From NCBI GenBank assembly GCA_027625915.1, contig JANTQA010000033.1, positions 868,001 through 932,000 of the forward strand: a stretch of DNA of 64,000 nucleotides. The letters run 5' to 3'. Of the stretch, positions 1-54,818 are shown piece after piece (within the stretch, counting starts at the first letter, position 1; each line of letters starts with the position of its first letter). This DNA comes from Anaeramoeba flamelloides (taxonomy: Eukaryota; Metamonada; Anaeramoebidae). The position numbers and the translations under genes are program-made. Below the pieces are notes generated by a model. The model searched no databases, was not told the origin of the DNA, and worked only from the letters and a program-made list of their open reading frames with translations.

Positions 1-333
1 AATTAGCAAAATTGTTTGGTGGTTATTATTAATAAATTAATGTATTGAGTTTTGAATTACTATTAATGTAATAAAATTTCCTAATTTAAAAAAATAAAAT
101 AAAAATAAAAATCTTTAAAAAAAATGTAAAAATGAATAATTATTATTTTTTTTTTCAATTTCAAAAAAAAATCAATAACTTAACTACTTTATCTTTGAAC
201 TATTTTGACTTTTTATTATAATTCAAATCTGGATTAAAGACAAATAAGAAGATTAATATATTAGTAGATCAATATCATTTTAAATCTATTTTAAAAAACT
301 TGATGAAATTTAGGCAAATCGGGGTGCTAAGGG
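1..333. mobile_element. TIR DNA element, 3' part, cut by window edge
   Basis: Bases 1-333 match 25,574-25,906 almost base for base and in the same orientation. Both end in the terminal motif GGGGTGCTAAGGG followed by ATATA. The 25.9-kb copy is complete and has the inverted form of this motif at its other end, so this is the right-hand end of a second copy whose left part lies outside the window. No coding capacity is visible, so it is presumably non-autonomous. The high similarity of the two copies suggests recent spread. The family name is unknown to me. Confidence 0.85.
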
Positions 334-1697
334 ATATAAAGCTAATTGTAGCACAAAAGTATTATTTTCCAATTAATAAATGAAAATTTTTATTTCAATA
401 TCCAAAATGTATATTAATTATTACTACTACAGCAAAATTAGCAACGTAAAAATTTAGTGTTAGAGTTAACAAAGGAAGTTTAATTTATTGTCTGAAAATA
501 TCATTTCTCAAAGACGTTGCAAAGTCTTTGTATTTTCTTTCGACTTAAAAACAAGAAAGATATTGTGGAATGTGAACCAAAAATTTTCGTTTTATAATTG
601 GAAAATCATAGTATATTTCCAACCTTATCTGAAATAATTTGTCAAAAACATATATTGGTTAATTATTTAATTTTTTAAAAAAATTGAATTTTTTAGCAAC
701 TAATCCACATTTCGCCACAAATTTAAGAAAGATATTTTACAACTTTGGAGTCTGAATATAGATAATTCAACCTTTAAATTTGCGTCGAAATGCAGATTTT
801 TTTCTGAAATTGTTGTAATTTTCACTAATACAAGGATCATTTTTAATTGATTAGATCAATTATTACTACTTTTACTAATCGATTTTTTAGAGACATCTGA
901 ACCATGTAGCACTAATGTGACTTACACCCAAAAACGACCTACTTTGATCTTGTGTTTCTCCTTGATAGAAGCTAATCACTTAAGTTCATAAAATACTTTA
1001 ATCAAAAAGAGTTAAAAATTTCAAAATGAAAAAAATTTTTCAAACATTAATTTGAATTTATCAGTATTTAAAGCACAGATAAAGAGTTTAATTTCAACTT
1101 ATTCTATTAAGAAATTAAAAGTTACTATTAACACATACTCTTGTCTTCAATGTGACTTCTTCTCTTTGTTAGTGGTTTAGGAAAGAAATATTCTTTGTTG
1201 TGTTTTGGGATTATTTGGTTTTTGAAAAATAAGAAACAAAAAACGCATTGGCTGAGATGTTTTTCTTCAAAAAAAGTTTCTTTTTGAGTGTCGTTTTTTT
1301 TTGTTGTTCGAAATTTTATGTTTTTTTGGGATGAAAAAAAATTAAACAAAAAAAAAAAAAAGCAAACAATAAAAAAAGATAAAAAAAATTATTTTAATTT
1401 GAAGTTGGTTTGCTTTCATCAAAATAAACATTTCCAAAAAAATGAAAAAGAAAAAAAAAAAAAAAATGAAAAATAACAGTTTTATTTATAGATTTTCTAA
1501 GTCAGCCACTGATTGCATAAAGAAGTTTTGTTTAAATAGATTTATGTTTTGAGTTTTTGTGTTGTGTTTTTTGATTTTCAAAAATAGTTTAAAAAATAAA
1601 AAGAAAACAAGACTCAACAATATTACGATTCTTGCTTTAAAGAAGATAAAGCATTGAGAAAAGAAATCTTTTTCTTTTTTTTTTTTTTAAAATTTGT
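334..1697. other. Intergenic, AT-rich, nothing recognised
   Basis: No gene-like exon was found. Short open frames at 1,128-1,476 consist of Phe/Lys/Asn runs made by poly-A/T tracts and show no protein-like composition. Confidence 0.5.
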
Positions 1698-2145
1698 TTA
1701 TCTAAATCGACGTGCTTGTCTTTCAGATTCCATAAGGACAAGAATGTCTCCTTCTTTAACTGGTCCTTTGACATTACGGATTAAATTTCTTGTGTTATCA
1801 TCAATGAATTCAACACGAACTTGGCTAACACCACCTGATGCACCTGTTCTTCCGAGGACTTTTGTTACAGTTACGAGTGTTTTTTCGTCCTAATAATCAT
1901 CAGGGTAGATAATGAAGTTTGAAGAAAAAAAAAAAAAAATTAAAAAGATCTTGTTTAAAAGTAAAATTTAAAAAAAAAAAAGATAACTTACGGTAGACTT
2001 TAGAAACAAAGACCAATTCAAATTAAGTGAGCACAAAAGAGAAATAACAAAGAAAAAAATAAAAATAAAAAAAAAAAAAAGAAAAGAACACATTGTTTAG
2101 TTAAAGGGTTGCTGTTTGAATAGAAATTTTTAAATTCGTTACCAT
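1698..2145 (-). CDS. RPS28: Ribosomal protein eS28 (small subunit)
   Basis: Structural protein of the 40S ribosomal subunit. The main exon is the reverse complement of 1,698-1,889 and encodes 63 residues ending in [10 protein letters not shown], stop TAA. It carries family signatures: [31 protein letters not shown] and ESERxARR. A 3' splice site (TTATTAG) precedes codon GAC. I place the start at 2,143-2,145, where ATG is followed directly by a donor (GTAACG). Splicing joins ATG to GAC, giving [14 protein letters not shown], close to the MD- start of other eS28 proteins and 64 residues in total (usual about 65-69). The intron would be 1,890-2,142. A competing donor (GTAAGT at about 1,990) would give a hydrophobic, un-eS28-like N-terminus from an ATG near 2,093. 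The main exon is near certain; the start exon is inferred. Confidence 0.9.
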
Positions 2146-2671
2146 ATTAATTCTATATTTGTGAAAGAGTTTATGAAAAAAAATGAAAGTCATAATAATT
2201 TTTTTCAAATCAGTTTAATTCAACCATAAACAATGTAATTGGATCTTGTACAAGGTTTGGTTTGTTATAAAAGTTTTTGATGAAGAACATACTGTTCTTA
2301 AAATAAATAGTAGATAATTTTAAATTCAGTACTTTTTCACTACACATGCCAACAATTATATATGAAATCATTGAAAAATCATTTAAATTTCATACAAATT
2401 CATATTTTTTCTTTTGGTTATAAATTTTCATTAAAAATTCATTGGAATTTCATTTAAAAATAATTTAGGAAAATTAAATGAAATTTATATGAAAATTTCA
2501 TTCAAAAATAATTTTATTTTCATTTAATTTCATTTTAAAAAACAATTAATGAAAATTGAATGAAAATGAATCAAATAATATTTAATTATAATAAAAAAAA
2601 ATACTCGATTTTTTCGAATTTAGAAGAATTAAAATTTAAAAAAAAATAAGTTTCTGTTTATTTTACGATTA

Positions 2672-2872
2672 TACAGTCAGTTTCACTTTTAAGGCACAAA
2701 CTTTCAACGAAATTTAAGACACAAAAAAAATCTCAAATTAAGGCACAAAATTCAAATTCTAGTAAAAATAAATTGTAAAAAAAAATATTCCAAATATTGT
2801 GACTTAATTTGAGATTTTTTTGTGCCTTAAATTTCGTTGAAAGTTTGTGCCTTAAAAGTGAAACTGACTGTA
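2672..2872. mobile_element. Palindromic Tc1/mariner-type MITE, copy 1
   Basis: A nearly perfect inverted repeat begins TA-CAGTCAGTTTCACTTTTAAG and ends with its reverse complement and TA. The arms are about 85 bp with a short A/T centre around 2,760-2,795. TA at both ends is the target duplication expected of Tc1/mariner transposases. No coding sequence. The RNA from either strand would fold into one long hairpin. Confidence 0.9.
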
Positions 2873-3220
2873 TTCGGATTTTGGAAGAAAAAAAAGCTTG
2901 TTATTTGACAAACTATCTTAAAATTCTTATAAAGTGAACGATCGATCTTTGAAGAACCAAAATAATAAGTAAATACCACCAAACACAATATAATATTTTT
3001 TTTATTCTTTAGCAATTGTTAACTTAATTGTTAATATGTTTTCCTTCTCTCATTATTAATAAATAATTGAATACTATATTGGAGTTTATTTTTTTAATTT
3101 CAAGATTCTTTTTAAATTCTTTTAGCATTTACTATCCAAATTACTTAAATATTTTTTATGGTCAATTCCCCCCCTAAAAAAAAACAATAAAATTTTTGAA
3201 TTAAATCTTTAAAATTCCAG

Positions 3221-3423
3221 TACAGTCAGTTTCACTTTTAAGGCACAAACTTCAAACGAAAATTAATACAAAATAAAAATCTCAAATTAAGGTACAAAAT
3301 TTTTAATTCTAGTAAAAATAATTTGTAAAAATTTAAAATTCCAAATTTTGTACCTTAATTTGATATTGTTTTGTGCCTTAAATTTCGTTGAAAGTTTGTG
3401 CCTTAAAAGTGAGACTGACTGTA
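3221..3423. mobile_element. Palindromic MITE, copy 2
   Basis: Same TIR (CAGTCAGTTTCACTTTTAAG), same size and TA flanks as the copy at 2,672. It differs by scattered substitutions in the arms. Confidence 0.9.
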
Positions 3424-3746
3424 TTCAAAATAAATTCCACAATTATTTAATATGAAGAGGGTAAATTGATAACATTTTAAGTTTATTTTTTTTTCAATTT
3501 TTCTTAAGTAGCTAGTCTCTATTAAATTTTTTTACCAATAACTAAATAAGGAATCCTTATCTTGAAATATGTTTAAAAAAGGAAAATAGACAGGTTTTTT
3601 CAATGTTAGAGCTTTTAGTTTTTGTTTTTTTAAAAGTAAAATTCTGTCAAAAAAAAGTGACTTTTAAAAAATTTTTTTAAACAAATATCTTAAACAGATA
3701 AAAATTTTTTGATTAATTTTGGATTTAATTATTTTCTCAAAAATAA

Positions 3747-3946
3747 TACAGTCAGTTTCACTTTTAAGACACAAACTTTCAACGAAATTTAAGGCACAAA
3801 AAAATATCAAATTAAGGTACAAAATTTGAAATATTTTTTTTTACAATTTGTTTTACTAGAATATGTATTGTGTGCTTTAATTTGAGATTTTTTTTGTGCC
3901 TTAAATTTCGTTGAAAGTTTGTGTCTTAAAAGTGAAACTGAATGTA
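3747..3946. mobile_element. Palindromic MITE, copy 3
   Basis: Same family as the copies at 2.7 and 3.2 kb, TA at both ends. The right terminus is slightly diverged (ACTGAATGTA). Confidence 0.88.
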
Positions 3947-4057
3947 ATTTTTCTCATTTTTAAAAACGAAAAAAATCATTTCTAACTAGTGAATATTTTC
4001 TATTTCGCTTCTATTCATCCAACTTGAATCTATAAAGAACTCAATTTGTTTTATCAA

Positions 4058-4259
4058 TACAGTCAGTTTCACATTTAAGGCACAAACTTTCAACGAAATT
4101 TAAGGCACAAAAAAATCTCAAATTAAGGCACAATTTTTTAGAATTTTAATTTTCACAAATTATTTTACTAGAATTTGAAATCATGTGCCTTAATTTGAGA
4201 TTTTTTTTGTGCCTTAAATTTCGTAGAAAGTTTGTGCCTTAAAAACGAAACTGACTGTA
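4058..4259. mobile_element. Palindromic MITE, copy 4
   Basis: Same family with both TIRs and TA flanks. Only about 110 bp separates it from copy 3, so four copies lie within 1.6 kb. Confidence 0.9.
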
Positions 4260-22883: not shown

Positions 22884-25800
22884 ATGTTTAAAAGAACAAC
22901 ACTCAAAGGTGAACTTAAAGAACTCCAACTTCGTTTAGTTAGTTTAAATCTTGAAATTAAAAAAGAAGCAATCAAGCAAGTCATTGCATACATGACTGTT
23001 GGGAAGGATGTTTCTGGTTTGTTTACAGAAGTACTCAATAGCCTAGAAACAAAAGATCTTGAAATTAAAAAACTTGTTTATCTTTATTTAATGAAATATG
23101 CAAGCAAAAAATCGGAACAGGCAATTCTTGTTGTTAACACACTAGTCCAAGTAAATTCGATCAGGCTTTAATTTCTTTAACAAAACAATTTAAAAAAAAA
23201 AAACAAAAAAAAACAAATACACCAAAACAAATCATTACTAAAAATCCAACTGTAGATAAATCAACAATCAAACCCAATTATCCAACCCAAAAAAAAATAT
23301 TGAAATCTAAAAACATAAACAAAAACAAAAAACACAAAACAAAAAACAAAAAACAAAAAAACAAAAAAACAAAAAACAAAAAACAACAAAAAAAAAACAA
23401 AAACAAACAACCAAAATAAAAAGGACACAAAAGACAAAAATCCTTTAATAAGGGCATTAGCGATTAGAACAATGGGGAGTATCAGAGTTGAAGAAGTTAC
23501 AGAGTATTTGTGCCAGCCACTTCGAAAATGCTTAAAGGTATGGTTGTTTTTTGATAATGAAGACAAACTTTTTTACCTTTTTTTTCTTTGTTCTATTTTT
23601 CAATTTTTTTCTTATTTCTTTTTTTATTTATCATCAAAACCGAAAAGAAATCGGCAATTTTTTTCGTCTAATTTATCAAATTAATTTTGTTGCAGTCGTA
23701 CAAACCGTACTTTGTTCCCTTTTATCTATAATAGAAAAAAAAATACTTTTTCTTCATGGGTGTGACAAAATAAATCTCCAGGCCACAACATCTTCAAATC
23801 CACACCAAATGAGGAGAATTCATTTTAGCACTCTAATGTATATTTTCAAAACCCACATGATACAAAAGCCGAATGGCTCCAAGTATAACTAAATGAATAA
23901 TTATACTTTTCAAAAAATGACAAATTCATAATTTGCCCTGCTTATATTCAAATTGAAATGTTATTTTAGAGTTATATAATTTCAAACGAAAGAAAAATTG
24001 GAGTGTTTTAGATTGAAATTTAAAGACTAAATCCACTTAAAGTCCTTATGTAACTATAAAATAAAAGCAAAAACTCGGATTCTTTTTTCAAACTCGAATT
24101 CTTTTTTGTCATGTCTTTGAGAAATTCTCAAGTCGTTTTAAAAAAATTCGGCCAAAAAATGTTTTAAAAATGTCTATATAAGTTTTTTGTCTGTTTTGTT
24201 GAGACTTTTGAAAACTTTTTCGAAATACTCTTATAAAATAACTACTGGTATTTATATAATAATTGGGAAAAAATTATCATTTCTTCTTCGTATTTTTCTT
24301 TTTTAAGAAAGTTTTCAAAGAAAAAAAGTTTAGTTATTTTAAAAAAGTGAAATTTGATCTTTTGATTTATTTGCTTGGCCCCTTTTTTATGATATTTATT
24401 GTTAGTATATATATATATCCCTTAGCACCCCAAATAACCTAAAAACATTTCAAACAAAAATTTTAATTTGAAATGTTATCAAAGGATAATAAGGTATAGA
24501 ATTAATAAACAATTATCTTAGAAAATTTTATAATTAAAAATTGTATAGTTGTTTAAAATAAAAAATAACTTGAAAAAAAATTTTCAACATTGGGAAATTT
24601 TTTTTTGGTTATTGTGATTTTATTATTTTTTCCAAATTTTCTCAAAATAAATTTTTTTTTTTTTTTGAAAAGTTTGTCTAGACATCAAAAACCTCTTAGT
24701 TTTAACATTTAAAACACATCATACTTTACTGGAAATTTTTTTGGGGCCCTTTGCACCCCAAAATTGCCTAAAATGCTTGATTAAATAATTTATTCATTAT
24801 AAAAGTTATTATAACATCACATAGAATATTTGTTTTATCTACTGATTACTATTCAATATCAATATCTATATTAGATTCTAAATAATTTAAAAATAAAAAA
24901 AAATATAAATTAAATTAGAAAAAAAAATCAAATTTTTTTTCATTGCAAAATTTTACAATTTTTTCAACAAGATTTTTTTTCAATTTTAAATGATTTGGCC
25001 AATAGTTCGAGTCAGATTAATAATTGATTTTTTTTTTTTATTTTTTACAATTTTTTAATTTTTGACTTTTTAAAATCTAGACATAAAATAAACAATATTG
25101 TTGAATTAGAGACCATGTATCAAAACTTATTTAACAAGATCTGGATTAATTTATTAAGGAAAAATCCAAATATTGCAAATATATTATTCAAATTTTTACC
25201 AATAACAAAATGCAATAAAAAAAAATTTGGTTTCGGAGATTATTTTATTATATTGGAATAATATTTAAGAATTATTTTTTATTTTATTTAAATTTAGGTA
25301 TAAATATTTTATCGATTAAAAAGAAATTTATATTTGTTTTATTCCAATTTAATAAATTGAAATTATTTTACAATTTTTTTTTTTTTTTTGATTTTCAATT
25401 ATTATCTATTGCTTAAATAAAAGTTTTAGAAAATTAATCATATTAAAAATTTAATTTTGGCCTAAAGAAATAAATTTCATTTTTCTCTCAATTCGATATT
25501 TATTGAAATTTTTTCTAAAAAAAAAATTAAATTTCAAAGTAATTTATTTTTTATTTATTTTTTTTATCATAAAATTAGCAAAATTGTTTTGTGGTTATTA
25601 TTAATAAATCAATGTGTTGAGTTTTGAATTACTATTAATGTAATAAAATTTCTGATTTAAAAAAATAAAATAAAAATAAAAATCTTTAAAAAAAATGTAA
25701 AAATGAATAATTATTATTTTTTTTTTCAATTTCAAAAAAAAAATCAATAACTTCACTTCTTTATCTTTGAACTATTTTGACTTTTTATTATAATTCAAAT

Positions 25801-25901
25801 CTGGATTAAAGACAAATAAGAAAATTAATATATTAGTAGATCAATATCATTTTAAATCTAATTTAAAACACTTGATGAAATTTAGGCAAATCCGGGGTGC
25901 T

Positions 25902-25932
<31 letters not shown>

Positions 25933-28900
25933 CGAGTTAACTAAGAATCCTAAATGAAAGTCAGATTTCAGAATTAGAAAAAGATAATCAGCTGAAATTT
26001 TACCCCATTTGTATTCCAAATTCCAGCAAATAAAAAAATCAGAAATTTCGGGATTCTAGGTCTTGCCAATTATCATGGATTTGATCAACACTCAATAGAA
26101 GATTGGACACTATAAAGGATATTGTGAAATTGCACTTCTTTTGATTGACAGTAATAAAATAACAAAAAAATAAGAACATTTTCACCCAACAACAAACCGT
26201 GATATAATTACAAAGAAAGAGAAGATCAAATTTCACTTTTTTAAAATAACCAAACTTTTTTTCTTCTCAATGAATACAAAAAATTATTTTTTGATACAAG
26301 ATCGAGCGATTTTAATTCTCTGAATAAAATAAAAAAAAAAAAAAATGTATCAACATATTTTACATTTAAAAGTAGGATTATTTAAAATATCCAACATTAC
26401 AGAACTTTATTTGATGAAATGAAAACAAAAAAAAAAAATATAATTTACTGTTCTTCAATGAACTTTAAAGCAAAGCATAAAATTCACTTGAGAATATTAA
26501 TAGCATTCAAAATTAAATGCCATTTTATATTAGTTTTGCTATTTTCACTGCTATTTTGTTTTGACTTCTTATCAATTATCCTTATTTCTGTCATTAACTT
26601 TGATTATTGGGATCTCAATTTCGAATGAGATCACATCAATTTCAAAATTTAACCACAAGTTGTTAAATTGCTACACTTCAACTCATCTCGGTATTTGTTA
26701 AAGTAGACTAGACTGAAGTTTTGAGACACACACGAATTTATATCAAGAATTGATTTTCGCTTCGGAAATCTTCAAACAATTTAACAAATTTTTAAATTGA
26801 TTTGATCTCATTCACATTACAACCTAGAAATAATACAAGATAAAATTTGATCTGCAATCTCAATTTTTCAATACTTTAATATTTTCATTTCCAAAAACAA
26901 AAAAAAAAGAAAAAAGAAAGCAAGTTAAAGAAAAAAAAACATTTCAAAGAGTTAATTATTTAGTAACAATCATGTGGGCTTTAGAAATAATACTAATTAC
27001 AAACAAAATAAACTCTAATTCAAAATTTTTGACAGACCAAAATTCAATTTTTGAAAAAAAAATCTCATTTAATCAATTAAAGAAGAAATACCAAATTAGA
27101 ACCATTTTCCAATTGAACTGTTAACACTTGTTTATAAATTAAAATAATCACAAAACAAAAAATAAATAATTATCAACACTAATGAATTATCGGTGTGTTG
27201 AAAATTTTGGAGATGGACCAAACAAAAAAATGCATTGAATTTATTGTTAATGGGTTAGATGAAACCTCATCTAATCTATTAAAGATAGAATTTTGAAGTG
27301 ACCAAATTTGAGACTTCTAATTCAACGAGTATCTAAAGATACAATAATCAATGGTATTTGAATCTTAATTCAGTTTTCTAAAAAAAAAAAGAATGAAGAA
27401 TTGTGGAAAAAATAAAAGAGGGAAAAGAATCAAGAGTGGAAAAAATTAAGAGACTTACAATAATTGTTGTGAGAGACCTGGAATTTTCTAGTTTAAATTA
27501 ATTTGTTGATAGGTTTTATTTTGTCTTGATCTCCTTCTTCCTAATTGCTTGTTGAGTCATTTTTATCAGAATATATTCTGTGGTGATGTCTTAGATTTCT
27601 TTTATGTTCATTTTCCTCAATAATTCATTTGTGTCTTTTTTGAATATTATGCTATAATCAAAAATTTTGATTTTTTTGATTTGTTTTTTCCAGTGTTTTC
27701 TGGTTCTCTCATATTTTTCACAGTCCCAAATAAAGTGGTATATGTCATCATTTTTTTTTCTTACACCATGGGCATAATTTGGAATTTATTCCCTTTTCCT
27801 ATCTATATGTGTATCTATTCAATCCATCACAAAAATATTTGAGTTTGAATAATGTAGTTGATGATTTCCAGTTTAAGTAGGGTAAAAAAATGCGTTGATC
27901 AATTTGTAAAAATTCTATTTAGGATTATTGATCGATTAAATGATTAGATAACAATTAAACTAATTTTATTTGAGTTCTTCTTTTTTGAACAACTCAATTT
28001 TAACCTAATATCTATCGTTGAAAAAAATTATTGATCCAACGAAAAAAGTTACAAAATTCAAAAAATGAAATGAAAACAAAAAACTAAAAAGACGAAAAAA
28101 TTATTTTCATATTTTTCAAAAAATCAAAATTTTTTCTAATTTAAATGAAATTAAATTAAGTTTATTCTTTTAACTGTGTGGAAAAATTTGAATTTTGGTT
28201 TGCATCAAAAAAAAAAAAAAAAAAAAAAAAGAAAAGAAATACAATAAAATGAAAATTTTATCCACATCAATTTAAATATTGTATCAATAATCATCAATAT
28301 GGGTATTTTCAGAAAAATTAAATAAATTAATTCAGAAATTATCCTTTCACAACTCTGTTGCTGGTCACAATTTTTTTTTTTAGGTAAATCATTAAATATT
28401 TCAGAAAATATTAAAAAGTCATGAGAATGCACAAATTAACTATAACCATCAAAAAAAAATAAAAAATAGAAAATTTTGAATTAAAATTTTTAGTTTAATG
28501 GTTTATTCTTCAAAAAACAACTTAAAAATTTCATAAACACTTAAAAAATATATCTAAAAAATGACAAATGTTGTAATTGGTACTTTATTATTTGATTTTT
28601 TGCCAAAATAAAAAATAAAGGATTAAAAACTTGAAAACTTTGATTTTTAATCAAATGAAAAATTTATCTTCTCTACTTTTAAGTTTTAAAAAAATTTTTA
28701 TTGAATTTTTCTCAAAGAAAAATAGGAAGTTTACTTCTCTTCAAATAAAATCAAAAAAAAAAGATAAAAAATACAAGAAAAAAATTAAAACCCATTATTT
28801 TGAGTTGACAAAGATATTTTCATAAAATATAATTATATAAATTTATTAAAACTCTTAAAAATAGTGAAAAAATTCAACTGAGTGATAATTGACCGAACTA

Positions 28901-31900
28901 TCTACAAGATCATTTTATTTTTTCACAAAGAAATTAAATTGATGAATTTTACTAGCATTTTTTGTAATTTTTTCAAATAGGGAATATTTTAATAACAGGA
29001 GTTTTTAAATTAACACCAAACAAAAAATTTTTTTATTGGATTAATTTTTTTACAATACATTTTTCTGTTTTTTTTTATTATTTTGAATGAAGGAAATAAA
29101 TTTCCTCTTACATCCGTTATTTTTTTTTTAATTTAAGAAATAAACCGAAAATATATTTAATTTTCTGTTTATTTCTAAAATTAAAAAAAAACATGGACAC
29201 TTAACTTATGCTTTTTTAATTTGAAATAATGGAGAAATCCCAATGATTTTTTCTCCATTCTTTTGAATTCTGGAAAAGTGCTGTTAGGTTTTCTTGAATT
29301 TTCTGTTTATTGGCAAAACCTCAAGAAAACCTAGAATACTTCACAAATAAAATAGAAAACATCAAAAAAACCTAGAACACTTAACAAATAATACAGAAAA
29401 CCTCAATAATACCTAGGCACTTGATGGCGCTCTATGGCACTCTACGGCGCTTATAGGCACTTGGCAGCATTTTCCTAATTTCTAAATTTCTAAATTTTTG
29501 TTTAGAAATTCCAATAAAGAATCATAATTTTCTTTATCATTCACCAATGATAAAATGAATATTTATCTTTATTTTGAATAATATCAAAGATATTATTTTT
29601 ATTATTTTTGTTAATTTGAATTGAATCTTTCATCCAAAATTATTCGATTTTCTTTATAGAATGGGTAAGTCCCAGAAAAAATGATCGATATTTTCAAATA
29701 TTTTTGAATTTTGGTATTTTTTTGGATCGATTGGAAGATTTTCTTTTTATTTTCTTTTTATCATAAACATAAGAATATCTATTTAGATAATTTGTGAAAT
29801 TTCTTAGTTTTAATATGGAAGTTGAGCCTACCCATTTTAAATATTTTTTGTCGTTAGTTTTTTTTTAATTTAAGAAATAAACAGAAAATTTTATTTAATT
29901 TTCGGTTTATTTCTTAAATTAAAAAAAACCGCCGTTAGGTTTTCTTGAGTTTTCTGTTTATTTGGAAAATCGATAGATTTCACAAATAAAACAGAAAACC
30001 TCAAGAAAACCTCGGCACTCTACAGCACTTTACGACACTACTGTTTGTTTATATTGTTATTAAAGAATGATTTTTAGATATTCTTGACCTTTCCATCCAG
30101 AAAAATTTATTATCAAGTTTTCTCTAAATTAATTTAGATTTGGATCTAATAATTTTAAGTTTTCTATTTCCCAATTAATATTTTCATTATCTGTTTTTTA
30201 AAAAGTTAAATTTTATGATATGTGATCAAAACACAGAATTTCTAATTTCTTTTTGAGTTTATATCTTCTTTTATAGATTGTAATTCTGGCTTGGTCAATT
30301 TTTGCTTCAGTTTTATAGATTATTTGGAAAATGTGGGTTAATTTTTAAAAATTTTGTTACTTTTTTATTTATCCAAACACCAACCGAGTTAAAATCTTTT
30401 TGATTTAGATTAAAAATTACAAGCCCATAAAATAACTGGCTAATATTTATTAATTTCAACCTTTGTAATTTTACTCCGATTAGATAATTTTTGTTGGCTA
30501 AAAATCATTTTTATTTTTTTGCTGTCTTTTACTTTTTTGAATTTTTTACTATTTTTTTTTTCTTTTTCAAGACAAATTCCTAAATATTTTATTTCGGATA
30601 AACTTGTTTAATTTTCATGCTTAATCAATATTTTGGTTTATTCTGAGTTCTAGAATAATTTTATAAATTTTTATTAACTTTTTGTCAATTACTGATATTG
30701 GTCTTTCCAATATTAGAATTAAGTCATCTGCAAACATTTGGACATGTTGTACTAAATCTTTTCTTTTTTTTTTTAATTAAAAAATGGCTGATAAATCCAA
30801 ACATTAAAGGAGAAAGAGGATATACTTGATAAACCCCTGGTCCATCTTTTTTATAATATTTTTAAAGCCATATTTTAATTTTTTCATTTCAAATATATTT
30901 ATCGAGAGCATAGTGTACTAATATATGATTAATAGTATCAAAGCATTTGTTGATATCAATTGTAACCACAAAGAATTCTTTATTTTTATAATAACAAGTT
31001 TTTCTAATTCAAAAAGTAAATTTAGAACATGCTATTCTTGAATCTAATTTTTTTTGCAACCAAATTGAGAATATGATACGATATTCCAAGAGTCTTCTAT
31101 ACCTTTATAAATAAGTTTTAAAAAGAATCATCATCAAGTATTATTAATTGAGATTGGTATATCATTTAAAGGAATTTCTTCATCTCCAGATTTATGACTA
31201 AATAAAACATTTCATTCTATAATAAAATATATTATTTCATCGTTTGGGTTATCAATTTATTGTAAAAATATTTTTTTGAACATTTTTTAAAAAAAGGAGA
31301 AAATATTCTTTTTTATTCTTTTTTTTTTTGGTTCTAATTTATAGAATTGTATTTTATCAAAATCTTTAACTGCTTTATTTTTTTTAGATATTTTATTAAC
31401 TCGTAAATATTCTCTAATGAAAAAATTTCCTTAATATCCATTGGTTTTAAGTCTTAAAATTAATTTAAAATAATGATCTTTGATTAATTTATTATATTTA
31501 TTTCAGGTTTTCCTCTAACTTCTTTACAGTAATCAAAATAAATACTTTCTAAATTTTTATTATTTAAAATAATTTTTGTTGAATACTTTCTAATTAAATT
31601 TATTAATTTCTAACATTTTTGATTATATTCAAATAAAAAATATTTTTCTTAAATTAAAAAAATAATTCTTTTACAAGACCTTTTCCTTTTTATATTGATC
31701 AAAAAGGGTTGAAGAATGGGATGTAAATAACAAAAGAATTATAAATTTTTTTAAAAAAAAATCTATTTGTTTTATTAAATTGAGACAGTTATAATGAATG
31801 CCTCAAGACATAGTATTTTTATTGGATAATACATATGAATATATTTAAAATTAATAAAAATTTTTATTCAAACATTTTTTTCTTTTCAAACAATTTTTTA

Positions 31901-34900
31901 TAATATATAAATGCATGCATATATAGGATAAACACCCTTATGTTAGAAAGACTGCAGCCATTTGTATCTCCAAATTATTTGATTTAAACCCAGAACTGGT
32001 CCAAACACAAGGTTTTTTTGGAGATTTAAAAAAAATGATCAGCGATTCCAATCCAATGGTTGTTTCAAATGCATTAGTAGCGCTCCAACAAATCAATGAA
32101 AGTAGTACCCAACCAATTTTTGTTATTGATCATAAGAATATTATGACCATTTTAAATGCGTTAAATGAATCAACCGAATGGGGGCAAATTCAAATTTTGG
32201 AAGCTGCTGCACAATGCGCCCCCAAGAATGAAAAACAGGCATGTATAATTGTTGAAAAGGTTATACCACATTTATCGCATTCAAATTCCTCTGTGGTACT
32301 AACCGCAGTAAGAGTTGTTTTAAATATGCTAAACATTATTACCAAAAACAAAGATTTGGTTAAAAAAACCACGGAACAACTTTCTTCTTCATTGGTAACA
32401 TTACTTTCTGGAAAACCAGAAATCCAATATATCGCTTTAAGAAATGTAAATTTAATTGTTCAACGATTTCCAAAAATGTTAAGTAGAGAAATTAAAATGT
32501 TTTTTTGTAAATATAACGACCCAATATATGTAAAAATGGAAAAATTAGATGTGATGGTAATGCTTGCCTCCAAAAGGAATATTGAAATCTTACTCCGTGA
32601 ATTCCAATTGTATGCAAAAGAAGTTGATGTACAATTTGTAAGAAAATCAATCCGTGCAATCGGTAAATGTGCAATTAAAATACCTAAAGCTGCTGAAAAA
32701 TGTGCAAAGGCACTTCTTGATTTGATAATGACCAATGTTTCATATGTAGTGCAAGAAGTTGTAATTGTGGTTAAGGTTTGTACCTTGTTTTTGATTCATT
32801 TTATATTTTTCTTTTTTTTTTTTTATTATTGATTTTTTATTATGTTTTTTTTTTTTTTCAATTTTTAAAGAACTGATACAGTATATTTTCTGTTTTATAA
32901 ATAACTTAATTGTTAATAAAAATAATCAGTTACTTTTTTTTTAGTTTGATCTTGGAAACATGCGGGTTTTGGATTTCAAAAGATATACTCATAAATTAAT
33001 AAATTGTTTAAATGAGGTTAACTCATCCATTTCATAGGCCATACACAATTTTCAAAAAAAAAAATATTAAGAGATCTTTACAAGATTTAATTTTTATTTT
33101 AAACAAATACTAGTCAATTAAATAATTTAATTTTTTCTGTCATTTTTCAAGTTAAACAACACTTTCATTATTGGTGTTTTTTTTTTTATGCAAATGTCTT
33201 AATTTGAAAGTTATTATTTTTATAAATTTAAACACTGTTTGTAAAAAATCAATTTTGGAGTGTTGAGAATTCAAATTATACAATTTTTATGAGATAAAAA
33301 AAAAAAATTCAAAAAAATAACAACAATTTTTTACATTTTTTAAATCATTAATGAGTATTTAAAAGCAAGCCAAAACAGAATTTTCAAAACATTTTTTTTA
33401 AAAGTACTTTTTTTTTTTATCGTATAAAAATTTCAGAATTGAATAAAATCTAACAACACTATATTTAACGACATAAAATTTGAATCAAGTTTTTTTAAAA
33501 AAAAATTTCAAAAAAAAAATGAGTTATTGTTATTTTTATAGCCTTAATAATTTTTTAATAAAATCTAAATCTCAATTGTACTTTTGATTGATTTTGACAA
33601 TATTCTAACAAAAAAAAAGAAAAATAGAAAATGAAATGCTTGTTTAAATTCAATGAATTTTTTTTTTTATTGAAGACAATTTTTTCATTAAAATGATTTA
33701 TAAAATTTAATTAAAATGATTTCAATAGTGAATCAAAACAATGAAATATAAGAAAATATAAATGAATTTTGCAAATAATCAAAAATCAAAATAAAAGTCA
33801 AAACAGCAAAACAAAATAAATTAAAAAAAATAAACTTTGAATGAGAAATAATTTTATTTATATCAAATAATTAATTTTTATTTTCACATTTGATTATGAT
33901 TTCTTTAATCTTGGATCAAAATAAAATAATATATGAATAACAAAAAAAAATTAATGGAAAACGAAAAAAATTAATGAATAAAAAAAAAAATTAATGAATA
34001 AAAAAAAAATTAATGAATAAAAAAAAAAAAATCAAATTGAAATAGGATATCTTTAGAAAATTTCCAAATCAATATGAATCATTAATTGCAAGGCTATGCG
34101 AGCATTTAGAATCTCTGGATGATACCGAAGCAAAATCGTCAATGATTTGGATAATTGGGGAATACTGCGATCGAATTGAAAATGCCGATGAATTAATAGA
34201 GGAGTTAACAGATTCTTTTACAGAGGAGCCACATGAAGTCCAACTACAATTACTTACTGCAACTGTAAAATTATTTTTGAAAAAGCCGACTGATGCAAGA
34301 GATTTAATTCAAAAGGTTATTACAGTGGCTACTGAGCAAATTGATAATTCTGATTTAAGAGATCGTGCATATTTTTATTGGAGATTATTGAGTGAAAATC
34401 CAACAAAGGCAAAAAAAATTGTCCTTGATCAAAGGCCATTAATTTCTTCAGAAAATTATAAATATGATGAAATAATGCTATCTGAATTGGTTCGAAATAT
34501 TCCAAAGCTTTCAAGTATTTATCATAAACCTTCTGAAATGTTTGTTCAAACAGTAAAAGTTTTTGAAGGTGGGGAAAATAAATCTCAGAATTCAAGTGAA
34601 GAAAACGAAAAAAGTGAAGAAAGTGAAGAAAGCGAAGAAAGTGAAGAAATTGAAGAAAAATCAAAAAAAAAATCGTCCAAAAAAAAAACAAATACAAAGA
34701 CAAAAACGAAAACGAAAACCAAATCCAAAACAAAACCAAAAACAAAAGAAAATACAATCAATAAAGACGAAAATACATTGATATCAAACACAAATAATAA
34801 CAATAATACACAATCAACAAATCAAAATACAATGGAAACTTTAATTGATTTAGGATTTGGAATGACAAACACACAAACACAAACCACAAACACAAATCAA

Positions 34901-42382: not shown

Positions 42383-43591
42383 TTATAAATTTGTGCCTAT
42401 TTTTACATTTGGAGAAGCGATTGAATTAAAATTTATTTCGTTTTCTTGAAGTGAATTATCAATATCAAAAAGATCATCGATTCCATTCGAAAATGATTGT
42501 ATTGGTGATGGTGATTGTTCAAAGTCATTCAAAAATTCGTTGTTTGAATCAAAATCAAAATCAAATTCAGATTCTAATTGTGTTGTTGACGGTTGTACAA
42601 AAAAGCATTTATTTTTAGGATTAATTTGTTGATCTTTTTCTTCAATTTTCTCATTTTCTTCATTTAGTAAGAAACTCTGGTCATTATTTAACATTTCTTC
42701 TTGTTGTTGTTGTTTTACTGGTATTTGAATAATAAATGGGATTTTTTTTTACTTCATTTTTAATTTCTCTTTTTTAAGAGAACATAGATCGAGAACCTCT
42801 TTCTTTAAGAACTATATTTATAAAAAAAAAATATGGAAAAGGAAGTGAAAATTCTTTCCCATTTAGAATTCAAATACCAGTAATGCTTTACCCAAAATTT
42901 TTATCAATTCTTTTAAATTATCATTTTCTTCACGAACTAAGTCCATGTTCTTGTTTAATTCTGTGTTTTGGTTTTTTAGTTGTAAAGTTTGGATTTCTAA
43001 ATTTTGAACATATTCTTTTTTTCTTTGTCGACAATTCCTTGCATTGACCCTATTTCTTTCCAATGTTAATAATTTTTTTTGTTTCTTGCTTAATTTCTTT
43101 CTTCTTCTTCTTCTTTTTTTGGTATTTAGATGATTTCTGGTTTGTGTAATTTGTTTTTTGTTTGTTGTTCCATTATTTATCGTATCAGTTGGGTGTGGTT
43201 TGTAGTTATTTTGCACAATTTCTTTTTTCTTTTCATTTTCTTTCTTTTTATCATTGTAAAGATTTAAAAAGTTATTTGGAATTGGTGTATTGTTTACTGT
43301 TGCATTGGTTTGTAATTGATTTCTTCTGTAAGTGTTTGGCAATGATGGGAAAATATTTGGTTTGATTTCATTTTTTTGATTTTTAATTGTTGTGTTTTTT
43401 GATGTTTGTTCTTTTTCTTTTTCTTTTTCTTCTTGTTTTTCTTTTTTTTCATGTTTTTGTTCTTGTGGTTTCCCGTCGATTATTAATTTTGGTTCATTTA
43501 GAAAATTGTTGTTAGGTTTATTCAAAAGATCAGAAGAAATTGAAAAATCGGTAAAAAATGAAGCATTGAAATTCAAAGAATCAATAGACAT
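42383..43591 (-). CDS. bZIP transcription factor
   Basis: Sequence-specific DNA-binding protein acting as a dimer in the nucleus. Exon 1 is 43,591-42,892 and exon 2 is 42,717-42,383, with a phase 1 intron (donor GTAAAG, acceptor ATACCAG), total 344 residues. A low-complexity N-terminus leads to a basic region with a run of Arg/Lys, then ERNRVNARNCRQRKKEYVQN, which has the bZIP signature N-x7-R. A leucine zipper follows (LEIQTLQLKNQNTEL, MDLVREENDNLKELIKIL). The splice joins ...KELIKIL|V|KQQQQEEM. The C-terminus is acidic with Ser/Asn/Phe clusters (DFDFDSNNEF, DDLFDIDNS), typical of activation regions. The basic region has Asn-Ala where many bZIPs have Ala-Ala. Subfamily not assigned. The intron is almost entirely a MITE (see 42,716-42,882). 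Confidence 0.88.
42716..42882. mobile_element. MITE family B forming the bZIP intron
   Basis: Core 42,718-42,880 (163 bp) flanked by TA on both sides. Terminal inverted repeat CTGGTATTTGAAT, then AAATGGGA. On the gene (minus) strand the element ends in ...CAAATACCAG|TA, and that CAG is exactly the intron's 3' splice site. The intron (42,718-42,891) is therefore the MITE core plus TA plus nine bases, GTAAAGCAT, which supply the donor. A full copy of the same length lies at 54,651-54,818. Confidence 0.85.
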
Positions 43592-45579
43592 TAAATTATT
43601 TAAATAATGATTCGTGTTAATGGTTAAAAGGTTTAAGTTGTTTGAAATATTTCTTTGTTTTGTTTAAAATAAGAGATTTTAAAAAATAATAAATCAAGAA
43701 GTCGAATTATTTTTTTTTAGTAATTTTTTGTTTGTACAATTCGATTTAATGTAAATTTATTTCAAGAAACTCAAAAGTGTGGCAAAAATTTCTTTATACT
43801 TAACAGAACAGAGTTATTGATCAAAATATTCTTTTTTTTATCGAGAATAATTCTAAGATTTCTTTTTAATTTTACTCTTATTTTTTCCGTTTTCAAAAAA
43901 AATTGAATAATTCTAGAGACCTTCTTCAATGATTTCTAATTCTTATTTCCTCTTAGATTCAATCATTTCACTTTTCAAAAATATAATAGCTGTAAATCAT
44001 ATGATCATTTTTTTTTAGTTATTTTATCTAAATACTTGCCTATACAATTGACAAGTGCCTTTTGGGAAATTTAAATATCTTTAACCAATTAAGTGAAGTA
44101 TTTGATTCTCAAAAATTATTGTATTTATTTCAAAAACAGAATGATATCATTTAAAAATAATATTTTTAAAATTATTAATATTACTCATTTTTAACCAAGA
44201 TAACTCAAAAATAAATTTTAGATTTGGCCAAAAACAATAATTTCGAAAGATTCTTCCTCTTTAGAATAAGAATTAATTAATTATATCCCTTAATATTTTT
44301 TTTGATTTGTTTTTTTTTTGCAATAATTTTTTTAGATTTAAGGGGGTTGGAAATTAAAAACTTCTTCCAATATATAAAATAAACCTCGTAAGTATTTTGA
44401 TATTTTAAAAAAAATAAAATAAAAATCTATCTTACCTAACTATATAAATGATTTATTCATTTACCAAGATTGTTTGAAATAGTCTAAACTGATTAACCTT
44501 CAAAAAAAGATTTTGAAAATGGTAAATATTCTTTAATAACTAGCCAAATCTTTATGAGATACTATAACTACTAATATTACTTATTAAAGGAAATTACAGC
44601 CCACCAAAAAAAAAAAAAAAAATAAATAAAATCAATCAATAAATAAATATATACCTTTATTTGTACATTAACAGGAACAAACAATTCATTTAACTTTCCC
44701 AAAAAATAAAACAAATTGCTAAGAAATTTAAGAAATCATTTCTTTCAGCAATTCTTAACTTTAGAGAGTTGAACTGATCTATAGAATTAAATTTTTAAAA
44801 TATGACTTTTATCAAATAAAATAATTTTTAGGGCAAATAAGAGGGATTAATAACTCCACCGTTAAAAAATAAAATAAAAAAAATAAAACAATTTTTTGGA
44901 AAAACGAATTAAAATTTTATTCAATTTATCTTTCAATAAATGTAGTTTCAGAAAAGAAAAAATGCTTATTAGTTAATAATTTCAATTTTTTAGGACAAAA
45001 ACAGTCAAAATTTCTGTGATTTTTGAGAATTTTCGAACAATTATTTTTCATTTTTTTTTAAAAAGAAAAACTATTCCCTAAGTCATTAATCTTACATATA
45101 TTATACCTATATTTAAAAAATCTAAATAAATTTAATTTTTTCTATTAAAAAAGTGGTAATTATATTGAATTACCTCTCATAATTCATAATAAATAAATAA
45201 CTAATAAGATTTTTCTTAAAATAAATATTCTTTTTTAAAAAATTCAATTCAACAATTAATCTTAATTTTTAAAAATCAAACAGAAAAATCTATTAGATTT
45301 ACAAAAAAAAGAAAATTATTCAGTTGGAAATTTTTTAACTCTGAAAAAAAAATTATTTCTTTAGATACTTTCCCCAACCAATCTCTGCTGAAAAAATTTC
45401 AAATAATTAATATTTGATTTATTGAAAAAGGTGTAAAAAAAATAATGAAGAAAATATTAAACTCAAAAAACATATATACTATAGAATATAATAGATTGGA
45501 TTGGATAATTTATTATGATTATACCGATAATCACAATATTCCTAAAATTTTGATAAATTTAGACAAAAAATATGTAAAA
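43592..45579. other. Intergenic upstream of the bZIP gene
   Basis: AT-rich; no exon, hairpin or element recognised. Confidence 0.45.
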
Positions 45580-46056: not shown

Positions 46057-46770
46057 CTTTGTTTCAGTAAAAGTTACACATCATTTTTTTCAAATATCAA
46101 TTATTTTTTATAATTCGACTTTGAAAAACAATTCAGATATAAGTAGAATAATATATATCTAAAAATTAGTTGATGTTATGTATAAATGAAAACTAATTAC
46201 CTGGTTTATTTCTTAAAAATAAAAAAACTCACTTCTTATGGTTACATTTAAGAAAAACAAATCCGTTCATTTTAAATTTCTACCGGTATTTGAATAATAA
46301 ATAGGAAACAATTTTCACTTCATTTTCCATACTTTTCTTTTACAAATCAAGTTCCCAAACGAAGTGTGTTGGTATTTGTGGTCTCTATTTGAAAAAGGGA
46401 AATGAAAATGAGGGTGAAAATTTTTCACATTTATTAAACAAATATCAAGATCAAAGATCCAAATAAAATTCCAATAGAATTCAATATTAAACTACAAGAA
46501 TCATTTCCCTTGTTTCAGTAACATTTTAAAAACACCTTTTTACAAAGTGAATTAGAGATTACAATAAAAAAAAAATTTTCAAAAAAATTACTTTAACTAA
46601 AAGTATCGAAAAAAAAAACAAAAATGTGAAAAAATAAGAAAAATTTTTTCAATTTTGAAAATTTCCAAAATTAAATTTTTCTTCTAATATCCATAAAATC
46701 TCTTTAAACACATGAAAATTATCTACACTACAACTGGAATTGGGTTGACTGGAAAATGGTCTAGTTTATA
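46057..46770 (+). repeat. Direct repeat D, left copy, flanking the fimbrin-like gene
   Basis: About 710 bp colinear with 50,979-51,683: TTTTTTCAAATATCAATTAT, a diverged family B MITE (ACCGGTATTTGAATAATAAA at 46,282), TTCATTTTCCATACTTTTCT, TTGGTATTTGTGGTCTCTAT and TTAAACAAATATCAAGATCA. The nested MITE is present in both copies, so it predates the duplication. Confidence 0.8.
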
Positions 46771-47144: not shown

Positions 47145-50100
47145 TTAATTCTTTTCTTTGGAAATTCTCATAAATTCGCCAACTAAGGTTAAGATCATTT
47201 TATCTTTAACTTCTACGATATCTTCCGGTAATAAGAAGATTGTGCCACCTAATTTTCTGGTTAAGGAAATAACTAGTCTAGCATTATCCATATGGTCGAT
47301 ATATTCAGATCCATTGGAAACGAAATTATAATTGACTGCCTTGGGGTTGATTGAATATATCAGGTCTATTAAAAAGATTGAATTTTGTAATTTTTGATCT
47401 TTAAAACTCAAAATTTTGGACTTCTTTCCGGCATTTTTGACCTGTAAATTGGCCCAACTGACCATTGCCGAGTCTTCAATTTTCAAACCCTTGAGCACAT
47501 TAAGTTTTTTCAAAATAGCCAAAACGTGGTATCTCATTAACTGCCATACGTAACCAAGAACCATTTTTTTTTTGCCTTCGTAAATGTCTCTACCGCCTGT
47601 TGTTCTCAATTTGATACCTAACCGTTTCCCCAATTCCACGACACGGTTGCAATTATTAATTTTTTCGTACATGTTTCTGCAGTTAGTTTTAACAATTTTC
47701 CAATTGACTGTATTTGGAGGTGTGATTTTGTCAATTACCTGGAATAGAATATGGCCATCTTTTAAGTCCTCATACAAATGGTAGACCTTGGGCTTCACTC
47801 CTAATGAGTTTATCCACATTCGAAAGCTTCTTTCCTCCCTGGTGCCCACGTCCGGGATTTTGGAATGGCTTTTGGGCCTTTTCTGCGCCTGTATGCCAGA
47901 CTTGATGTCAAATAGGTAAGCGAGGAAGGCGAGATTCAATTTATCTTCGCCTCTTGTGATCCCAATTGGGGCAAGGAAATAAGTGATTTTCATTGCGTGT
48001 GTGAATTTGCAAATCAATTTAGCTCTTTGTTCCTTGTCCTTGATGGACAATAATTTTTTAATTGGGCAGCTCTTGGGATCCAATTGATTCAGCAGCAAGC
48101 CCAAAATGACGGAATCCTTGAGATCGTCCGAAAAGTTTGTCAATTTCTTTTTGTAGCCACCTCTTTTCAGATGGTAATTGACCCATCGCAAAATGAGATC
48201 CTCGGGATGAAGCGCGGCGATACCGCTTTGCCTTTCAGATTTCTCGCATAATTCCAGAATCTCTGGATGCTTTTCTGCATTGAGCTTTGATAGCAGCCCC
48301 GCCTTGATTATTTCCCAGCACAATTGCAGGCAGGGCACCTCTTCTTCATTTAACAGATCCTTTGAAGAGATGCCACGGACGTTACAGCCGAGCGCTAGCG
48401 CGGAATTGACACACAGAGTATGATTTTCCAAAATGGCGTCCATGTGCTTTTCGATATCGATTTCTTCAAAGACATTGATAACCCTTTCGTCAATGGTGCC
48501 CGGCATGATATGATTAACCAATTTACATAGCAAGAGCCCATCTCTCATCGCATCGACCAAATCGGGTGTCGTTTTGCCGATGGGCAAGAGATGGTTCAAT
48601 TCCAAATCGTATTTCAGCTCCTTGTTGATGTAATCGGTCATCATTTGCTCCACGATGTCAATTTCGCGATTCGATTCGATAATTTCTTCTTCAAGTTCTT
48701 CGGTGACCGTTTCAGTGATGACCTGTGGTTCAATATTCAGTGCCTCTTCCAATTGCTGCCTTAAGTTTTTGATTTCCTCCTTTAATTGTTTAATCACCAA
48801 ATACAGTTTGTCATTCTCTTCTTCCAATTTTCGATTGCCATTCATCAGTTTTTGCAATTTCATTTTATATAATTTCAGTTGCTTTTGATATTGAAGCTTT
48901 TGCTTCGCGGCCCGTTTATTCTTTTGCTGCTCAATTTCCAATTGTAGCTCGGTGTCTTCCAATTTCTTTTTCAAAATGTTCATCTGATCAATTTGGAATC
49001 GAGACATACTGCTTTGCCCTGAATTTAATTTTTTGAATTTGGTTTCATATTCCTTAATTTTGTTATTTAATTCCTTTTCAGTTTTATTTTTTTGCTTTTG
49101 TAAATCGTCGTATTTGATTTCCATTTCATCTAATTTGAATTGTAACTCTTCCAATTCAGACAGGTGTTTGCTATTCAGTTCATTTTTTTCAATTTCAAAT
49201 TTCCTATTCATCATGTTCATTTTCCTCTCTAATCGTTTTTTTTCTTTGTCAATTTCACTTTCCTTTGCCTTGATCTTTTTTTCATATCGGTTCCTTGTTT
49301 CCACAATCTCTTGCATTAATTCCATTTCCCTTTTTTGCCATTGGCTTTTCTTTTTTTTGAATTCCTTTTCCTTGTCTAAGAGTTTCTTGTTATGATCCTT
49401 CATTAAATTTTGCTTCATCTGATCCATTTCGTTTCTTAACTTTTCCTCTTTCATATTATAGAGCTTTAATTCATTTCTCAATCGTTCCTTGAGCTTTTCT
49501 AATTCGTTCTTTCCTTTGGATTGGCTATTTAAATTTAATTCAGTCTGCTTGAGGAGTTTCTCTAATTCCTTTATTTTGTTATTGCTTCTTTGTAATTTAT
49601 TTGAATATTCATTGATTTCTTCCTTTAAGTCACGATTATTTTGCTTGAATTTGAGTTCCGTTTCCATTAGTTTCGAGACGTGTAATTGGTAAAATAATAG
49701 TAATGTTAAATATAATATTCTTCTTTTATTATTAGAATCTTCTAGCAAGACAAATTCATTTTCATTTTCTTCAATTTCTGAGCTATACATCTCAATTTCT
49801 TTTAGAATCTCCATTTTTTGATTCTTGCCATTTTTCAGCGTTTTGACAATTTTAATCAATGCGTCATTAGCATTCGTAAAAATATTTTCTCCTAAAATTA
49901 TTTTTTTGTTTTTTTCTGAACTAAACCATTCGGTGATACCATAAATTCCTTGTAACATATTCGAATTCTTTATCGTCATTTTTTCTAACCAATAATTAAT
50001 TGCCTTTAATTCTCGGTTTTCTTTTTCCGATTCTTCATATGAAAATGTTTGTTTTAAATATTTATCCAATTCTTTAACATTTTTTTCATATTTACCATTG

Positions 50101-50149
50101 ATTTTGTTTTTTTCACGTTCTAAAAGGAGATATTGTTCATTTAAATTTT
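47145..50149 (-). CDS. Fimbrin/plastin-like actin bundler with long coiled coil
   Basis: Four calponin-homology domains, as in fimbrin, which cross-links actin filaments. The exon runs 50,149 to 47,145 (TAA), about 1,001 residues. No in-frame ATG precedes the coiled coil, an in-frame TAA lies just upstream, and AAATAG at 50,150 is a fair 3' splice site, so a first exon is missing. Order: a poorly defined N-terminal helical region, coiled coil (about 125-480, heptads with LEKLKERLRNEL, LQFKLDEMEIKYDDL), then CH1 (about 500-610, MRDGLLLCKLVNHIMPGTID), CH2 (about 635-745, LILRWVNYHLKRGG), CH3 (about 770-875, FRMWINSLGV, DLKDGHILFQVIDKI) and CH4 (about 890-1,000, AMVSWANLQVKNAG). NCNRVVELGKRLGI and YVWQLMRYH are fimbrin ABD2 motifs. 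Normal fimbrins have EF hands where this one has a coiled coil. The exon body is less AT-rich than the flanks. Confidence 0.88.
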
Positions 50150-50220
50150 CTATTTATTTGGTTAGTTAAGGTTTGTTTTGTTCAAATTTATTTTGAGTGT
50201 TTTATAAAGAGATATCGAAA

Positions 50221-50978: not shown

Positions 50979-51683
50979 TCTGTTTCAGTCAAAGGGAATA
51001 ACGTTTTTTTCAAATATCAATTATTTTATATAATTGACCTTTGAAGAACAAATAAGAAATAAAGAGAATAATACACATCAAAGAATTGTTGATACATGTC
51101 TGAAAGAAAACCAATTAATCAATAAATTTTCTTGAAAATTGAAAAACTCAAATTCTTAGGGCCCTATTGAGAAAAACAACGATGTTCGTTTTGAACTTCT
51201 ACTGGTATTTGAATAATAAATATGAAACATTTTTCACTTCATTTTCCATACTTTTCTTTTAGAAATTAAGCACCCAAACAAAGTTTGTTGGTATTTGTGG
51301 TCTCTATTTTAAAAAGGAAATGAAAAAGAAGTGAAAATTTTTCAAATTTATTAAACAAATATCAAGATCAAAGATCGAATTGAATTGCAATAGAAATCAA
51401 TATGATTTCTCAACAATCTTTACATGGTTTCAATGACATTAGAATAACACGTTTTTACCAAGTGACTCTTGATCTTGCAATAAAAAATTTTTTGCAAATG
51501 AATGAAGTTTTGAAAAAAAAATCGAAAAAAAAAAACAAAAATGTGTAGAATATGTGAAAAAATGATTTCAATTTTGAAAATTTCCAAAATAAAATTTTTC
51601 TTTTAATATCTATGCAAACCCTTTAAACACGTGTATTATATCATTACAACTGGGCCCCTTTGACTGAAAAATAGTTTATGTTT
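50979..51683 (+). repeat. Direct repeat D, right copy
   Basis: Colinear with 46,057-46,770 and in the same direction, including the nested family B MITE (ACTGGTATTTGAATAATAAA at 51,201) and the end block AATTTTGAAAATTTCCAAAA, ACAACTGG. The two copies enclose the fimbrin-like gene. Confidence 0.8.
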
Positions 51684-54650: not shown

Positions 54651-54818
54651 TACTGGTATTTGAATTTCAAATGGGAAATTTTTTCACTTGCTTTTCATTT
54701 TCCTCTTTGTAACAAAGACTCCAATTTACAACCCACTTCTAGGGAAACTCTGTTTGTAATTGAAAAATAAGGAAAATGAATTGAAAATATTTTCCCATTT
54801 AAAATTCAAATACCAGTA
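54651..54818. mobile_element. MITE family B, complete copy
   Basis: Core of 164 bp between TA dinucleotides; both ends CTGGTATTTGAATTT then AAATGGGAAA. This is the same size and termini as the bZIP intron copy. It lies 190 bp beyond the second exon of the coiled-coil gene, so it could be in an intron of that gene or in its 3' flank. Confidence 0.9.

Follow-up and report, generated by a model that had tools for sequence, protein, structure and literature searches.

The origin of introns is an old question, and most of the gains that are known are too old to display the first step. The locus described here raises the question of whether a MITE that interrupts a bZIP gene functions as a newborn intron. 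The gene lies on the minus strand of a 64-kb stretch of Anaeramoeba flamelloides DNA (the whole stretch analysed, hereafter the window; 23.7% G+C) and is interrupted just past its leucine zipper (Table 1). The case is useful because the insertion is of near-zero age and an empty site exists in the same genome; the mechanism would be known in kind. We propose that a duplication had left two bZIP genes and that a non-autonomous TA-target MITE, mobilised very recently, entered a coding exon of one of them. With the MITE, a CAG 3' splice site would have come to lie 174 nt from a GTAAAG already in the exon. At least part of the transcripts would be spliced from GTAAAG to CAG to give a near-normal protein of 344 aa with three residues fewer at the end of the zipper, and the MITE would then be seen as an intron at birth. 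We give this explanation as a whole, a young MITE insertion together with splicing as a newborn intron, a probability of about 50%. The MITE insertion into the bZIP exon is in itself practically certain.

Table 1. Positions of the MITE, the bZIP gene and the candidate splice sites in the window
Feature	Position	Strand	Details
MITE core, 163 bp	42718-42880	.	starts CTGGTATTTGAAT (CTGG), ends ATTCAAATACCAG (CCAG)
Flanking TA dinucleotides of the MITE	42716-42717 and 42881-42882		MITE with both TAs 42716-42882, 167 bp
Left inverted arm, including flanking TTA	42715-42741	+	27 nt, 93% complementary to right arm
Right inverted arm, including flanking TAA	42857-42883	-	27 nt, 93% complementary to left arm
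bZIP coding part 1	42892-43591	-	ATG at 43591
bZIP domain PF00170	42905-43087	-	E 7.6e-09; residues 193-253 of frame 42863-43663; wholly upstream of insertion
bZIP coding part 2, acidic C terminus	42383-42717	-	stop codon 42383-42385; aligns with sister gene
Proposed intron, 174 nt	42891 to 42718	-	11 exonic nt and 163 nt of MITE; predicted from in-frame joining, 344 aa
Proposed donor GTAAAG	42886-42891	-	old exon sequence; context TTGG/GTAAAG
Proposed acceptor CAG	42718-42720	-	MITE terminus; context TACCAG/TA
Stop codon if MITE is retained	42863-42865	-	protein of 242 aa

The MITE, its sister site and its age

The proposed intron had been described from the window as a TA-flanked MITE of 163 bp plus 11 bases, which has proved exact to the base. 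The inserted sequence has the features of a TA-target MITE, namely inverted ends, TA on both sides, a restored empty site and many short, near-identical copies without a transposase. The window copy contains stop codons in all frames. Folding of 206 nt of minus-strand RNA around the MITE gave a single hairpin of -51.6 kcal/mol (z -6.4). The genome (254 Mb, 76 contigs) was searched for copies, relatives and transposases. The MITE matched at least 40 places with 99-100% identity over 167-169 bases (the best 40 of 2184 candidates), and a 38-base end of it had 149 exact matches, the reversed control having 0. The MITE is a repeat, far above chance expectation. Among 121 distinct copies, retrieved with a pattern that left the two flanking bases open, 115 have TA at both sides, 117 begin CTGGTATT and 116 finish AATACCAG. 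Outside the TA these 121 copies show a mild preference only, G being scarce at the third and fifth base. DDE_3 transposase genes gave at least 150 matches in the genome (the best 150 of 268 candidates). At the three DDE_3 loci examined, neither ends within two mismatches of CTGGTATTTGAAT nor an autonomous partner of the MITE was found. Two DDE_3 loci, L130 (C37:2877700-2880500) and L131 (C1:8375400-8378100), carry TA-adjacent inverted ends containing TAGTCTACGA and represent a family different from the MITE.

A protein search of the genome with the bZIP gene gave 27 matches, with 117 of 117 candidates scored. One of these is a sister gene (C48:4917321-4918337) that consists of one 351-codon frame and shares 78% amino-acid identity across residues 1-343. 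In the DNA alignment the sister has a single TA where the MITE is inserted and continues there without a break, which is the exact empty site. About 100 bp upstream of the ATG are also alignable between the two genes, so that the sister seems to have arisen by DNA duplication rather than as a retrocopy. It follows from the empty site and the DNA-level duplication that the insertion postdates the duplication and that there was no earlier intron; the ancestral site is intronless. The dS between the two paralogs is about 0.21. The sister has GCACAG where the window gene has GTAAAG. No match above 53 bits was found in this search beyond the window gene and its sister, and the assembly thus shows no second allele. 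Nei-Gojobori dN/dS against the sister is 0.46 before the insertion and 0.71 after it, values that are uninformative because the changes are few and the insertion is very young. An intron at this place in distant bZIP relatives had been suspected, since several matches stop near the same query residue. This was rejected, as the two best of these relatives (L122, C34:364750-365350, and L123, C48:4430400-4431000) reach a stop codon after the zipper and not a donor, and in four others examined the frame continues past the zipper. L122 and L123 are a further pair of similar bZIP genes. Like the window gene and its sister, they are divided between contigs C34 and C48, which hints at a larger duplicated block.

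The age of the insertion has been judged from a sample of copies picked for their likeness to the window copy (the best 40 genome matches and the exact matches to one end). This sample comprised 118 distinct copies, 61 of which are equal in length; 27 of the 61 lie within one difference of the window copy, and six, counting the window copy, show no difference in 167 bp. This makes the insertion very young. Since these six identical copies leave the window MITE without a private change, the donor can hardly postdate the insertion, in agreement with the claim in the original prediction that the GTAAAG was already present in the exon.

The MITE family and coding sequence

The empty site of each of the 118 copies was reconstructed, and the longest frame that crosses it was determined. 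The window copy lies in a frame of 371 codons from stop to stop, followed by copies in frames of 148, 123, 110, 96 and 95 codons, and is the only one of the 118 that is clearly within a long coding frame. With equal flanks of about 197 bp, 109 copies were also compared with all TA sites of the window. One of the 109 lies across at least 120 open codons vs 12.1 expected, two across at least 110 codons vs 13.7 expected (binomial p 6e-5) and six across at least 90 codons vs 18.1 expected, the expectation being rough because it is drawn from this one window. Exit frames were surveyed in five of the six frames, using the best 150 copies in each (of 235 to 4112 candidates). Exit frames of at least 120 aa among the copies scored were those of C22:2094913 (123), the window copy (142), C26:4279004 (179), C48:1562814 (154), C48:16562941 (121) and C51:140528 (1341). 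These surveys, of the best 150 copies in each of five frames, gave no second clear exonic copy. The copy at C22:2094913 (L033) has an empty-site frame of only 46 codons. The two C48 copies are not convincingly coding, and L052, L067, L070, L100/L120 and L121, also tried as exonic copies, look non-coding by eye. At C26:4277300-4280600 (L050, which includes C26:4279004 and has the 148-codon frame) the MITE copy is seemingly in the leader of a gene, the protein of which resembles CDC50 by eye. The C51 copy (L133, C51:140527-140692) precedes recognisable coding sequence by about 30 codons in the 1341-codon frame, which has Cys-rich repeats. Its empty-site frame takes in 24 codons before the MITE copy, and with recognisable coding starting some 30 codons beyond, a leader or an existing intron is likelier than an exon. 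Six peptides, including the short L050 peptide, had no Pfam match at E 0.01, which is weak evidence of absence. Like ordinary MITEs, the sampled family apparently avoids exons, with the proviso that copies between short exons may be missed. The suggestion that the MITE belongs to an introner family is therefore not borne out by these counts, and the test proposed with it, a genome-wide excess of copies in genes, gave no excess in the sampled copies.

Gozashti et al. (2022, PMC9860276) describe introners that carry a 3' splice site while the duplicated target provides the 5' site, others that take splice sites from the neighbouring exon, and cases in which the codon number changes. Introner families are there sets of similar introns, kept if they have at least four members. 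The window MITE is similar in being a terminal-inverted-repeat element within a gene with a possible change in codon number; it differs in that one of 118 copies is clearly in coding sequence and in that its splicing is a prediction. In a review (PMC3443670), transposon insertion is given as a route to introns, including the activation of nearby latent sites, and intron gains by transposon insertion are listed in Oryza, Drosophila, Oikopleura and Zea. The proposed route is alike here, an inserted transposon and a latent exonic site. Unlike those gains, as they are presented in the review, the present case has a sister gene with the empty site and a MITE without a private change, and is known from DNA alone.

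The splice pair and the rival explanations

With the MITE and one TA removed, the computed product has 347 aa (..ILGKALKQQQQ..). Splicing from GTAAAG to CAG would give 344 aa (..ILVKQQQQ.., computed), nine bases shorter with the frame kept, and with the MITE retained the computed product has 242 aa, ends ..LGKALLVFEF and keeps the bZIP domain intact with loss of the acidic C-terminal 110 aa. The original prediction of a donor just upstream of the insertion, an acceptor formed by the MITE's own terminus and a frame-preserving loss of nine bases is thus correct in position and in arithmetic. GTAAAG-CAG is one of 8 among 91 nearby GT-AG pairs that restore the bZIP C terminus, four of which use GTAAAG, three a GTGAAG further upstream and one a GTATTT within the MITE. 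A pair that restores the frame is common by chance. In a simulation, the MITE was inserted at 1500 TA sites drawn from the 1853 that 35 long frames contain. An in-frame GT-AG pair was available within 60 nt at 1215 of them, so that frame rescue by itself proves nothing, and at 1028 the donor of such a pair started GTA. An exonic donor of strong type (GTAAA, GTAAG, GTATG or GTGAG) in frame with the MITE's own CAG was found within 15 nt in 6 of the 1500 and within 30 nt in 22, and any GTA donor in frame with that CAG within 30 nt in 81. A looser rule, under which the strong-type donor may lie inside the MITE or at a distance of up to 60 nt and the acceptor may be any YAG within 60 nt, was satisfied in 72 of 1500. 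A smaller simulation with 8 frames gave a strong-type donor with the MITE's own CAG at 1/727 (15 nt) and 8/727 (30 nt). Because the rules were chosen after seeing the case, the chance is best given as a range of about 0.4 to 5%. The flanks of the copies are mostly non-coding; of their 242 sides, 15 have a strong-type donor, in any frame, within 17 nt.

For comparison, the beta-adaptin and Ras-like genes of the window provided five introns, which were positioned by protein homology and by eye. Their donors are GTAAGC, GTAATT, GTAAAT, GTATGG and GTTTGT, and the base after the acceptor is G in all five, vs T after the MITE CAG. A coding-score intron finder, which uses only GT and AG as motif, recovered GTAAAG-CAG among 17 candidates, an agreement that mostly restates the geometry. 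With only 17 candidates, of which one is the MITE case and several are doubtful, they are too few for a splice-motif matrix of this genome. The beta-adaptin gene also has an apparent intron of 8.4 kb (about 23530-31926), far longer than the other introns observed in the window.

Several observations bear on whether the pair is used. In favour of splicing, the lone clear exonic survivor of the sampled copies carries a close, in-frame donor of strong type and, the family being depleted in coding sequence, an exonic survivor should be a tolerated one. GTAA-type donors, moreover, occur in introns of conserved genes of the window. Against splicing, the CAG sits in the stem of the strong hairpin, the acceptor is followed by T and not G, and the truncated product retains the whole bZIP domain. 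In addition, with an insertion so young and a sister gene as cover, presence cannot prove tolerance. The chief rival is plain disruption, in which the mRNA keeps the MITE and translation ends after 242 aa; we regard this as quite possible, a little short of even, by judgement and not by computation. Such a gene could persist through its youth, perhaps through non-fixation, and through the sister gene, and the short protein may be a trimmed or competing bZIP. The stop codon within the MITE, the position of the domain wholly upstream, the presence of the sister, the youth of the insertion and the stop right after the zipper in the two best-scoring distant relatives are all in keeping with disruption. 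It is opposed by the low chance frequency (0.4 to 5% under the various rules) of an in-frame strong-type donor 11 nt upstream, by the apparent removal of coding copies of the family as a rule, and by the four other relatives whose frame continues past the zipper. If the MITE is retained, the locus is an ordinary young gene disruption.

The remaining explanations are much less probable. It is improbable that the MITE was misplaced in assembly or lies on one of several alleles of a normally intact gene; identical repeats are prone to assembly error and one allele is present in the assembly, but a misjoin is unlikely to leave a TA at each end of the MITE and to keep both flanks colinear with the sister, although a single-allele insertion is still compatible with these. 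That the family makes introns in many genes, with the window copy among them, is very improbable. The CAG at both ends of nearly all copies, by which an acceptor is supplied in either orientation, speaks for it; the depletion in open frames, the solitary position of the window copy among the 118 and the five exit-frame surveys speak against it, though short exons could hide some copies. An intron already present into which the MITE fell has hardly any probability. Apart from the location of the insertion at the domain end, nothing was found in its favour, and it was rejected because the empty site is one open frame in the window gene and the sister reads through it. Overall, the part of the predicted intron birth that stands is that a MITE was recently inserted into a coding exon where no older intron lay, with the empty site preserved in the sister and a donor that is older than the insertion. 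Substantial splicing, which is judged from sequence, has roughly even odds, a figure of judgement that was not computed. Local intron birth is plausible and slightly likelier than truncation. We also raise, tentatively and as an unlikely generalisation, that a MITE with CAG at both ends lands anywhere, that selection clears nearly all exonic copies, and that the survivors would be those with a ready in-frame donor a few bases upstream. If true, intron birth would be a filtering of ordinary MITE insertions and not a trait of specialised introners, and the sister gene would be a built-in control.

Related transposons and elements in the window

Rushforth and Anderson are said to have observed in 1996 that Tc1, a TA-target DNA transposon, is spliced out of mutant C. 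elegans pre-mRNAs when it lies in an exon. The window MITE is likewise a TA-target DNA transposon within an exon; Tc1 differs in being autonomous and in that its splicing was observed, whereas a MITE is concerned here and splicing is proposed. Stowaway elements are TA-target MITEs. The window MITE resembles them in short length, inverted ends, flanking TAs, the many near-identical copies and the hairpin, and differs in its terminal sequence. No published description of this MITE family was found in the accessible text of the literature on introners, on intron gain by MITEs or transposons and on Anaeramoeba, and the literature search found no paper on Anaeramoeba transposable elements. A second copy of the family is present in the window at 54651-54818 (168 bp with TAs); its interior is diverged and its frame is only 70 codons. 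Related elements at 46283 to about 46460 and at 51202 to about 51380, approximately 4.9 kb apart, share the left end of the MITE, have a degenerate right end and are alike in orientation; they flank a CH-domain gene (47145-50153).
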